DNA of 59,886 nucleotides, from NCBI GenBank assembly GCA_002698745.1, contig PAAD01000010.1, positions 1 through 59,886 on the forward strand, in the 5' to 3' direction. The stretch is from Flavobacteriaceae bacterium. GTDB lineage: Bacteria; Bacteroidota; Bacteroidia; Flavobacteriales; Flavobacteriaceae. Numbering within the stretch: position 1 is the stretch's first letter; each line of letters starts with the position of its first letter. The notes under the pieces are model-generated. The model saw only the letters and a program-made list of their open reading frames with translations. It did not search any database and was not told the origin of the DNA. Below are positions 736 through 16,072 of the stretch, piece after piece. Position numbers and translations under genes: made by a program.

Positions 736-751
736 TGGCACAGATTTTGAA
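736..751 (+). promoter_or_regulatory. Candidate promoter element TGGCAC-N5-TTGAA upstream of lon
   Basis: TGGCAC (736-741), AGATT, TTGAA (747-751); same elements and spacing as upstream of dnaK. Confidence 0.45.
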
Positions 752-831: not shown

Positions 832-3282
832 ATGTTTCAAAAAAATATTTTATCTCCTGGTTCCCTTTTACCTCAAGATTTAGAAGATGAAGCGGATTTG
901 ATTCCATTAATGACTTCAGATGACGAGCAAGCTATGCTCAAAGAACCTCTTCCAGAAGAGCTACCAATACTCCCTTTAAAAAACACTGTATTGTTTCCCG
1001 GTGTAGTGATTCCTATTACTGCTAGTAGGGATCGTTCCGTAAAGCTTATCAAAGAAGTAAATAAGGGGAGTAAAATTCTTGGAGTAATTGCTCAACAAAA
1101 TGGCGATACCAAATCTCCCTCCCCAAAAGATTTATTTCAAAAAGGAACTCTTGCGAAAGTTTTACGAGTACTTAAAATGCCTGATGGTAACACCACGGTT
1201 ATCCTACAAGGAAAAAAGCGATTTGAAACTACGGCATATACTCGTGAACACCCTTTTTTAAAGGCTGAGATCAAAGGACTTAATGAAGTGCGACCAGAAG
1301 AAGGGGATCCAAATTTTGATGCAATAATTGAATCTATACGTGATTTGGCATTAAAAATCATTTCTCAAAACCCTGAGATACCCACTGAGGCATCTTTTGC
1401 TATCAAAAATATTCAAAGCAATACATTCTTGGTAAATTTTGTTTCCTCTAATATGAATATGTCAGTAGCTGAAAAGCAAGAAATAATGGAAATAGACCAA
1501 TTGGAAAAACGCGCCATGTTGTGTTTGAAGAAAATGAATATTGAATATCAGAAGCTTTCTCTAAAAAATGATATTCAAAGTAAAGTACGTACAGATTTAG
1601 ACCAACAACAGCGCGAATATTTCTTGCATCAACAAATGAAAACTATCCAAGAAGAGCTGGGTGACGTTTCTTATGACCAAGAGTTGCACGAGATGCGCGA
1701 CCGTGCTAAGACCAAATCTTGGAATGATAAAGTAGCTACGCATTTTAAGAAAGAACTTGCGAAGCTTGAACGGATGAATCCTCAGGTGGCTGAATATTCA
1801 GTACAGCGCAACTACTTGGACTTATATTTAGACTTACCTTGGAACACATATTCTGAAGATTCGTTTGATTTGGACAGGGCACAGAAAATTTTAGACCGAG
1901 ACCATTTTGGTTTGGATAAGGTCAAACAGCGTATAATTGAACATTTGGCCGTACTTAAGTTACGCAAAGACATGAAATCACCCATCATTTGTTTGGTGGG
2001 CCCACCTGGTGTTGGAAAGACCTCATTAGGTAAATCTGTAGCTGAAGCCTTAGGTAGAAAATACGTTCGTATGTCTTTAGGTGGAATGCGCGACGAAGCA
2101 GAAATACGCGGACACCGTAAAACATATATTGGCGCTATGCCGGGTAGGTTAGTGCAAAATATAAAGAAGGCCAGCACATCAAACCCTGTGTTTGTACTCG
2201 ATGAGCTAGATAAGCTTGCAGAAAGTGCACACGGCGATCCATCATCAGCCATGCTAGAGGTATTGGATCCAGAACAAAATACGAATTTTTATGATAATTA
2301 TTTGGAAACAGGCTATGATCTTTCAAAGGTGATGTTTATAGCTACTGCGAACGGTCTTTCGTCCATACAACCTGCATTACGGGATCGTATGGAAATCATT
2401 GAAGTAACGGGATATACAATAGACGAGAAAGTACAAATTGGATTGCGCTATTTATTACCAAAACAACTTAAAGAAAATGGACTAAAAAATTCAGCGGTTA
2501 AACTCCCTAAAGCAACCATGCAACATATCGTGGCTGGATACACTCGCGAGTCAGGAGTAAGAGGTCTTGAAAAACAAATTGCAAAGGTAGTACGTCACTT
2601 TGCAATTCTAGAGGCAAAGGAAACACCAAGAGCTTCCAAACTACCAACTGAGGAGCTTGAGTCAATAATGGGGCCTGCAAAGATGTTGCGAAACACCTAT
2701 GAAAATAACAATGTAGCTGGAGTTGTCACCGGTCTTGCATGGACAAGTCTAGGAGGTGATATTTTATTCATTGAATCATCAATCAGCAAAGGCAAAGGGG
2801 TATTGTCTATTACCGGAAACTTGGGGAAGGTAATGAAAGAATCTGCGACCATAGCACTACAATATATTAAGGCACATGCTTCTGAGCTAGCTATTGAAGA
2901 AGACTTCTTTTCTAAGTATAATTTTCACATCCACGTGCCCGAAGGTGCAACCCCTAAAGACGGTCCCAGTGCAGGGATTACCATGATTACTTCTTTGGTT
3001 TCGAGTATACTTAAACGCAAGGTCAAAAACCGTATTGCTATGACAGGTGAAATTACCTTGCGGGGTAAGGTATTGCCAGTTGGCGGTATCAAGGAAAAGA
3101 TACTTGCAGCCAAGCGTGCCAACATAAAAGAAATTATTTTAAGTGAGAAAAATCAAACTGATATAAATGAGATTAATGCACGTTACCTTAAAGGCTTACA
3201 GTTTCATTTTGTAACATCTATTGATGAAGTACTTGCCATCGCCATCACCAAACAACGTGCATCGGGTACGAAAAAGCAATAA
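832..3282 (+). CDS. lon: ATP-dependent endopeptidase Lon
   Basis: [20 protein letters not shown]-domain, [13 protein letters not shown] Walker [10 protein letters not shown] Ser-Lys protease motif. Confidence 0.98.
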
Positions 3283-13241: not shown

Positions 13242-14060
13242 CTAGTATTGTTCGTCTTTATTTGGAAAATCTCTTGATTTTATGTCTTTTACATACTGTT
13301 TTATGGCAGTCGTCATTTGGTTATACAAGTCCATATAGCGTCGTAAAAAACGGGGGCTAAATTCGGTTGTTAGCCCTAGCATATCGTGCAAGACTAATAC
13401 TTGTCCGTCTACACCTCCACCTGCGCCAATACCAATTATAGGTATTTTTACAGCTCCGGCTATTTTTTTAGCAAGCGCTGCGGGTATTTTTTCAAGTACC
13501 AATGCAAAACAGCCCAGTTGTTCAAGAATTTTGGCATCTTCTAATATTTTTTTTGCTTCAGCTTCTTCTCTTGCTCTAACCGTGTATGTACCAAATTTAT
13601 AAATGGATTGAGGTGTGAGACCTAAGTGTCCCATCACTGGGATTCCTGCATTAAGGATTCGTATGATAGAATCCTTAATTTCTGCGCCTCCCTCAATTTT
13701 AACAGCGTGCGCACCGGCTTCCTTCATAATCCGTATAGAAGAACGCAAGGCCTCTTTTGGATCTGATTGGTAACTACCAAAAGGTAAATCAACTACAACC
13801 AGCGCACGTTTTACGGCATTGACAACAGCACTTGCATGATAAATCATCTGGTCCAAGGTTATGGGTAACGTAGTTTCGTGACCTGACATAACATTTGATG
13901 CAGAGTCTCCTACCAAAATCACATCAATATTAGCTGCATCAACAGCTTTGGCCATAGAGTAGTCATATGCTGTTAGCATAGATATCTTGTTTCCCGACGC
14001 TTTCATTTCAATAAGTGCATTTGTCGTTATGCGCTTATATACTTTTTCAGATGTAGCCAT
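13242..14060 (-). CDS. panB: 3-methyl-2-oxobutanoate hydroxymethyltransferase
   Basis: [41 protein letters not shown]. Confidence 0.97.
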
Positions 14061-14105
14061 AAAAATTTTTTCAAAAATACATTATTGATATCAAATTTCC
14101 TTACA

Positions 14106-14122
14106 CATGACACCCTGTCATG
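14106..14122. promoter_or_regulatory. Perfect inverted repeat CATGACA-CCC-TGTCATG upstream of dnaK
   Basis: 7-bp arms with 3-nt spacer, ending 9 nt before the TGGCAC element. Confidence 0.5.
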
Positions 14123-14131
14123 AATTTGTTA

Positions 14132-14147
14132 TGGCACAAAGATTGAA
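14132..14147 (+). promoter_or_regulatory. Candidate promoter element TGGCAC-N5-TTGAA upstream of dnaK
   Basis: TGGCAC (14132-14137), AAAGA, TTGAA (14143-14147); start codon at 14171. Confidence 0.5.
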
Positions 14148-14170
14148 TTAGATCTTAAAAATATATTTAA

Positions 14171-16072
14171 ATGAGTAAAATTATAGGTATTGATTTAGGA
14201 ACAACAAATTCATGTGTTTCTGTGATGGAGGGTAACGAGCCTGTTGTTATTCCAAATGCTGAAGGAAAGCGAACAACCCCCTCAGTTATTGCTTTTGTTG
14301 AAGGTGGTGAGATTAAAGTAGGAGACCCTGCAAAAAGACAAGCTGTTACCAACCCCACAAAAACGATATCATCTATAAAACGTTTTATGGGTAACAAGTT
14401 CTCAGAATCTAAAAATGATGTCGAACGTGTACCCTATAAAGTAGTGAAAGGTGATAATAACACCCCACGTGTTGATATTGATGGTCGTTTGTATACCCCT
14501 CAGGAACTTTCAGCAATGGTGCTTCAAAAAATGAAAAAAACAGCTGAAGACTACCTTGGACAAAGTGTAACAGAAGCTGTAATTACTGTTCCTGCATACT
14601 TTAACGACGCACAACGCCAAGCGACAAAAGAAGCAGGCGAGATTTCAGGACTTAAAGTACAACGTATCATCAATGAACCAACTGCTGCAGCACTTGCCTA
14701 TGGTTTGGATAAGAGTGGTTCTGATAGAAAAATTGCAGTTTATGATCTTGGAGGTGGAACATTTGACATATCTATACTTGAATTAGGCGATGGCGTATTT
14801 GAAGTGTTGTCAACCAATGGTGATACTCACCTTGGTGGTGATGATTTTGATGACGTGATCATTCACTGGTTGGCCTATGAATTTGAGGAAAACGAAGACA
14901 TTAACTTACGTAAAGACCCAATGGCACTACAGCGTTTGAAAGAAGCTGCTGAAAAAGCCAAAATTGAATTGTCATCTTCTGCACAAACAGAAATTAACTT
15001 GCCTTATATTACAGCTACGGCATCTGGGCCTAAGCACTTGGTAAAAACACTAACTCGTGCTAAGTTTGAGCAACTTGCTGATGAGTTGGTTAAGCGTTCT
15101 ATGAATCCTGTTAAAAGCGCTTTGGATGATGCTGGCCTATCTACAGGTGACATTGATGAAGTTATTTTGGTAGGTGGTTCTACGCGTATCCCTGTTATTC
15201 AAGACGAAGTTGAGAAATTCTTTGGCAAAAAGCCCTCAAAAGGTGTAAATCCTGATGAGGTAGTTGCCGTTGGTGCTGCTATACAAGGTGGTGTTTTAAC
15301 TGGTGATGTTAAAGATGTTTTACTATTAGACGTAACGCCACTATCGTTAGGTATTGAAACCATGGGTGGTGTGATGACCAAGCTTATTGAGTCAAATACA
15401 ACTATACCTTCAAAGAAATCACAAGTATTCTCCACAGCTGCTGACAACCAGCCTTCCGTTGAAATTCACGTTCTGCAAGGGGAGCGTTCTATGGCAGCTG
15501 ACAACAATACCATTGGTCGCTTCCACTTAGACGGCATTCCTCCTGCTCAAAGAGGAGTTCCACAAATTGAAGTTACTTTTGATATTGACGCCAACGGACT
15601 GATTCAGGTTACGGCCTTAGACAAGGCTACCAACAAATCTCAAGACATTCGTATTGAAGCCTCCTCAGGACTTACTGAAGAAGAAATTGAGCGTATGCGA
15701 AAAGAAGCGGAAGCTAATGCAGACGCCGACAAAAAGGCTAAGGAAGAAGTTGACGTGCTAAACAATGCCGATCAAATGATTTTCCAAACGGAAAAGCAAC
15801 TAAAAGAATTTGAAGACAAGCTTTCTGACGAGAAAAAAGCGCCTATTGAAACTGCGCTTGAAGCTTTAAAAAAGGCTTATGAGTCCAAAGATATGGAGTC
15901 CATCAAACCAGCACTTGACAATATAAACGAAGCATGGAAACAGGCTTCTGAAGAAATGTATAAAGCGCAGCAGGAAGCTGGCGCCACCGAAGCCCCTCCA
16001 ACTGATGGAGCTGATGCATCCTCACCATCTGATGATGATGTTGAAGATGTTGATTTTGAAGAAGTGAAATAA
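14171..16072 (+). CDS. dnaK: Molecular chaperone DnaK
   Basis: [33 protein letters not shown]; acidic C-terminus [13 protein letters not shown]. Confidence 0.99.

Follow-up and report, generated by a model that had tools for sequence, protein, structure and literature searches.

That flavobacterial chaperone genes are under sigma-54 control has already been published and is not a new finding (PMC9723704). A transcription start-site map of Flavobacterium psychrophilum published in 2021 assigned dnaK, groESL, lon, grpE-dnaJ, htpG, and clpB to a sigma-54 -24/-12 motif, which was named SM4, and noted three proteins with a sigma-54 interaction domain (PMC9723704). The portion of that report available to us names no activator and describes no upstream site, and the motif mutagenesis it reports concerns only the remFG-spr operon (PMC9723704). 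A computational study of the Bacteroidota in 2025 found predicted sigma-54 promoters to be enriched at the DnaK, GroEL, GroES, GrpE, DnaJ, IbpA, and Lon families, with the enrichment at heat-shock families being highest in the Flavobacteriia (PMC12316311). This regulon study is a promoter prediction, and its accessible sections give no activator site or regulator for chaperone genes (PMC12316311). The sigma-54 starts of the SM4 regulon (PMC9723704, in the same accessible portion) lie at the genes considered here, to which the present analysis adds an upstream site with its target set, the phasing of this site, a copy of the dyad at the operon of a candidate regulator of the sigma-54 enhancer-binding protein (bEBP) class, an autorepression-type position at that operon, and a conserved GA at -12.

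Several described systems can be compared with this arrangement. PspF of Escherichia coli resembles the bEBP considered here in being an AAA+ protein that lacks an N-terminal receiver domain, carries a C-terminal HTH, and serves sigma-54 stress genes. PspF also represses its own sigma-70 promoter, which is a further likeness to the autorepression proposed below. Unlike PspF, the flavobacterial protein has a linker of about 110 amino acids and would act on cytoplasmic heat-shock genes from promoter-proximal sites. NtrC at glnA is another example of a single protein that activates sigma-54 promoters and also sits over the housekeeping promoter of its own gene, but the bEBP discussed here differs from it in lacking a receiver domain and in having another site and regulon. 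The HrcA-CIRCE and RpoH systems control the same core genes (dnaK, grpE, dnaJ, groESL). In contrast to both, the window (the whole stretch of 59,886 nt of DNA from a marine member of the Flavobacteriaceae that was analyzed) contains no CIRCE, and control would be exerted through a sigma-54 promoter and an ATP-driven activator, where the other two systems use the HrcA repressor and the heat-shock sigma factor RpoH.

In the window, an intergenic region of 110 nt separates panB (13242-14060, minus strand) from dnaK (14171-16072, plus strand), which encodes an Hsp70 of 633 aa (Pfam HSP70, E 4.4e-262). A direct reading of this region agrees with the order given by the first-pass annotation: the dyad CATGACA-CCC-TGTCATG with perfect 7-bp arms (14106-14122, plus strand), 9 nt, the sigma-54 -24/-12 element TGGCAC-AAAGA-TTGAA (14132-14147, plus strand), 23 nt, and the ATG at 14171. 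The conserved core of the dyad, TGACA-N3-TGTCA, occupies positions 14108-14120 of the plus strand, and the dyad, whose center lies near -45, is a predicted bEBP binding site. The -24 GG is found at 14133-14134 and the -12 GA at 14145-14146, and the -12 position predicts a transcription start at 14158 (+/-2 nt, plus strand) with a leader of about 13 nt. A sigma-A-like box for the divergent panB gene (TATTTTTG, 14072-14079, minus strand) is located about 28 nt beyond the dyad, and a protein bound at the dyad could touch both the dnaK and the panB promoters.

The dnaK site is the single match to TGWCA-N3-TGWCA recovered by a pattern search of the whole window. Taken alone, the window lends no significance to either element, with one dyad against 0.26 expected and three matches to TGGCAYN5TTG against 1.6 expected. 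Because these counts are near chance, the case for dnaK rests on conservation. CIRCE (TTAGCACTC-N9-GAGTGCTAA) has no match at <=3 mismatches across the window, dnaK included. Thus, CIRCE control of dnaK was rejected, and the earlier statement that no canonical CIRCE precedes this gene holds. A search of the window likewise found no TAnnTTTG sigma-A box in the vicinity of dnaK on the same strand as this gene.

Upstream regions of dnaK were assembled from 30 relatives and from 80 contigs of Flavobacteriia and uncultured relatives, which together provided 109 loci with >100 nt upstream. TGGCA[CT]-N5-TTG precedes dnaK in all 109 of these Flavobacteriales loci, although the search pattern fixed most columns of the element, such that this result is one of presence and not of column invariance. 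Outside the element, conservation drops off. The sigma-A -7 box TAnnTTTG, an alternative that the first-pass annotation had raised, occurs in just 1 of the 109 promoter regions, and a sigma-A promoter for dnaK was therefore rejected. In a wider sample of the phylum, the element is retained by most representatives of this class and by several outside it, with variants such as CGGCA..TTGA, and a sigma-54-like element (GGGCATGATGATTGA) is also found before dnaK in a symbiont with a genome of 345 kb (G039; L255, L239). The genome to which the window belongs carries RpoN together with a GAFTGA activator, and so possesses what a sigma-54 promoter requires. Correlating the element with the presence of rpoN was uninformative because this gene occurs in 118/118 sampled Bacteroidota genomes. 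As had been cautiously proposed, dnaK is transcribed from a sigma-54 promoter, an assignment that rests on start-site mapping in F. psychrophilum (PMC9723704, in its accessible portion).

At dnaK, the -12 G is followed by A in 79 of the 109 loci, by T in 23, and by C in 5. If GC is held to be a strict feature, then dnaK has a non-canonical sigma-54 promoter. By comparison, GC is present in 19/27 scored grpE promoters and in 18/26 scored groES promoters, while lon has mostly GA. Since GA is common at dnaK and lon, and GC at grpE and groES, the -12 GA is, judging from these counts, a maintained feature of particular promoters including dnaK, and not the product of decay. Our predecessor's observation that GA departs from the usual GC was correct as to the base, but the departure is shared by the 79 loci and is no defect.

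To describe the upstream site, the upstream sets were searched for TGWCA-Nk-TGWCA with k ranging from 0 to 14. A sharp peak is observed at k=3, whereas shuffled sequences average <=0.05. The k=3 pair is present at dnaK in 13/13 genus loci and in 78/96 other loci of the order, which provides the conservation among relatives that had been looked for. It is also present at grpE (24/30), groES (12/29), and the miaB-bEBP operon (10/14). The exact pair is missing from 18/96 order-level dnaK promoters and from many groES promoters. Only the nearest relatives keep the outer CA/TG of the 7-bp arm, and the core TGACA-N3-TGTCA is retained more widely. In the genome of the window, the groES site (TGTCAAGCTGTCA) lies 34 nt before the GG and the grpE site (TGTCATTTTGACA) 13 nt before it. 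The site followed by a sigma-54 element also occurs at hsp20 in four genus genomes (confirmed as hsp20 by Pfam) and at clpC in one relative (ClpC named from sequence). Sigma-54 promoters that would be co-regulated, namely those of dnaK, grpE, groES, hsp20, and clpC, thus share a site, and this recurrence is consistent with the dedicated heat-shock site that was first suspected from the dnaK region alone.

The orientation of the half-sites differs by gene: most pairs at dnaK are inverted, those at grpE are everted or direct, and those at groES are direct. The conservation of the dyad as a putative regulatory site was upheld, but its symmetry is only one arrangement of the general TGWCA-N3-TGWCA. 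As a separate observation, the sigma-54 element of grpE (TGGCAGTACTTTTGC, L249 near 331-345) includes a sigma-A -7 box (TACTTTTG) in 17/24 of the relatives having the site, which suggests that grpE may have overlapping sigma-54 and sigma-A promoters.

The distance between the end of the site and the -24 GG is 12-14 nt in most dnaK promoters and in all scored grpE promoters. Longer distances fall at 23-24, 34-35, 43-45, 54-56, 63-67, and 77 nt, and a single one measures 99 nt. The 39 unique far sites give a Rayleigh R of 0.88 at 10.5 bp, and their phase is the same as that of the near sites. When a single value is taken for each hand-grouped lineage (n=24), R is 0.86 with p about 2e-8, and with distinct values per gene (n=21) R is 0.82; the p-values are approximate because the loci are related, and the step pattern recurs across different families. 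A control made of 38 half-site pairs with other spacings gives R=0.49, which is not zero and probably reflects half-site arrays that are in register at several promoters. Such phasing would fit a protein that contacts polymerase from one face of the DNA. Binding of bEBPs has been described at 100-150 bp upstream, with looping (PMC7057263). The sites examined here lie at 12-14 nt, or at 23-77 nt in phase, and would work like a UAS at most, not like a classical distant enhancer.

The lon gene provides a useful comparison. A second sigma-54-like element of the window (TGGCACAGATTTTGAA, 736-751, plus strand) precedes the lon protease gene (832-3282, plus strand; Pfam Lon_C, LON_substr_bdg) and is conserved at lon in the genus, but no TGWCA pair lies upstream of it. 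In most genus relatives, the lon element is preceded instead by a conserved TTGTTACAA or TTATTACAA. Exact dyads were found near lon in three genomes, and the one whose sequence was inspected (L313, G030) sits at the beginning of the coding region or just inside it. Because this dyad has no promoter position, lon was dropped as a target of the site. The notion that the dyad is a feature of every sigma-54 promoter was also rejected, given that lon has the element and a TGWCA pair in 0/26 cases. Thus, the expectation that site and element would be found together at other heat-shock genes was borne out at grpE and groES and failed at lon. It is probable that lon is a sigma-54 target through a different upstream arrangement, and it may rely on a separate activator site. 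A further sigma-54-like element in an intergenic region, TGGCACAACTTTTGA, was noted at L041 (G000:C17:22520-22534, minus strand), 75 nt before a gene for a serine-rich putative lipoprotein.

Pattern searches of the genome reveal just two copies of the exact dyad TGACA-N3-TGTCA, one preceding dnaK and the other at C33:10417-10429. The second copy lies just upstream of the operon miaB-bEBP-lptE-TPR-secG, which is followed by groES (miaB, lptE, and secG being named from sequence and order). The dyad is found at this operon in 13/13 scanned genus genomes, 1565-1571 nt before the AAA+ domain. In further families, the dyad or a direct-repeat version is located at the bEBP operon, and in one of these families it directly precedes a stand-alone bEBP gene. 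No sigma-54 element follows the site at the bEBP operon. Rather, most cases have a sigma-A TAnnTTTG box 17 nt further downstream, which places the site over the -33 region. This layout is the one expected for negative autoregulation, and the bEBP operon may be autorepressed. The regulator had been left without a name in the first-pass annotation, and this receiver-less bEBP, encoded between miaB and lptE beside groESL, is now a strong candidate.

The candidate bEBP consists of an N-terminal AAA+ domain with a GAFTGA loop, no receiver domain, and a C-terminal Fis-type HTH whose recognition helix (ELGISERTLYRKIK) is invariant in eight distant homologs, the 345-kb symbiont among them. Between the AAA lid and the HTH are about 110 residues that include a conserved helix. 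It can be suggested, by inference only, that this long linker lets the ring reach sigma-54 from a promoter-proximal site, and it may take a stress signal. An AlphaFold model built with eight sequences has a mean pLDDT of 57, with a good HTH and a poor linker, and was not used for a fold search. The protein is PspF-like by architecture only, as it scores 256 bits against the PspF equivalog TIGR02974 (cut-off 444), and it also falls below the ntrC equivalog cut-off. In the symbiont, the sole bEBP is the HTH-bearing protein, encoded directly before groES-groEL. That so small a genome keeps this bEBP beside groESL, along with the dnaK element, hints at a basic role in control. The other bEBP of the genus (L249:2980-4125; G000:C4) is a receiver-AAA+ protein with a GAFTSA loop, and it cannot read the site by itself because it has no HTH. 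Its gene lies downstream of grpE-dnaJ and a gene resembling those for mechanosensitive channels, and is kept across the genus and the order. Given that the genome of the window is 77% complete, an additional DNA-binding regulator may have escaped notice, although 16 genus relatives likewise have only these two strong bEBPs.

These clues make it probable that the bEBP linked to miaB and lptE is a dedicated activator that binds the dnaK dyad and serves as a sigma-54 heat-shock regulator. Its role in the heat-shock response, its binding, the heat trigger, and the nature of the signal are what we infer from the sequence patterns. In the proposed mechanism, sigma-54 RNA polymerase would read the dnaK promoter, and a dimer of the Fis-type-HTH bEBP would occupy TGWCA-N3-TGWCA around -45, or at one or more helical turns further upstream, on one face of the DNA. 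The AAA+ ring would then remodel region I of sigma-54 and cause the promoter to open. The same site would drive grpE-dnaJ, groESL, hsp20, and clpC, and binding to the -33 region of its own sigma-A promoter would limit synthesis of the bEBP. PspF is controlled in trans (PMC7057263), and the bEBP, which has no receiver, would likewise be controlled in trans, in the way that PspA controls PspF, with free chaperone as one possible controller.

In the chief rival to this reading, a separate, heat-labile repressor with an HrcA-like role would use the dyad as its operator and block polymerase, in its sigma-54 form at dnaK, grpE, and groES and in its sigma-A form at the miaB operon, while the activator works without the site. 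Inverted repeats beside promoters are typical of repressors, and both the position near -45 beside polymerase and the -33 overlap at the miaB operon would suit blocking. Furthermore, bEBP sites usually are further away, and those described here are far closer than the 100-150 bp reported (PMC7057263), which counts against the bEBP. A repressor would nevertheless leave unexplained why far sites (34-77 nt) keep to one helical face, as blocking needs no phase, and the variable orientation of the half-sites is also unfavorable to it. The in-phase far sites, together with the one other conserved dyad being at the bEBP operon, weaken this explanation and make it rather unlikely.

It is more doubtful still that the receiver-AAA+ bEBP without an HTH is the heat-shock activator, acting from solution, with the dyad binding a third factor. 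Its linkage to grpE-dnaJ and its conservation throughout the order speak for it, and activators that lack a DNA-binding domain do exist, as with FlgR of Helicobacter and CtcC of Chlamydia. However, the only bEBP-type match in the symbiont is the HTH-bearing protein, even though groESL and the site are retained there. The phased sites would be left unexplained, and the GAFTSA loop departs from GAFTGA. There is very little chance that TGGCAY-N5-TTGA instead serves a different sigma factor or regulator. The GA or GT that replaces the canonical -12 GC in 102/109 loci is what recommends this idea, but TAnnTTTG is absent from 108/109 regions, grpE and groES, which share the upstream site, have mostly canonical GG-N10-GC, and the accessible portion of the start-site map puts dnaK under the sigma-54 motif (PMC9723704).

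The activator reading makes the miaB-linked bEBP the best candidate for the heat-shock switch in flavobacteria and perhaps, on present sequence comparisons, in the whole phylum. For the control of dnaK and groESL in Bacteroidota, the analysis singles out a named gene and a 13-bp site and provides a list of targets. Helical phasing over distances of 12 to 77 bp to the -24 element would represent an unusual mode of action for sigma-54 activators. On balance, we lean slightly toward a broader proposal, in which a single ATP-driven sigma-54 activator of ancient origin, encoded beside groESL, would run the core heat-shock response of Bacteroidota. This protein would act at TGWCA-N3-TGWCA before dnaK, grpE-dnaJ, groESL, hsp20, and clpC from face-locked, promoter-proximal sites with no long-range looping, and would repress its own sigma-A promoter. 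If true, this would constitute a third basic design for the bacterial heat-shock response, besides heat-shock sigma factors and CIRCE-type repressors.
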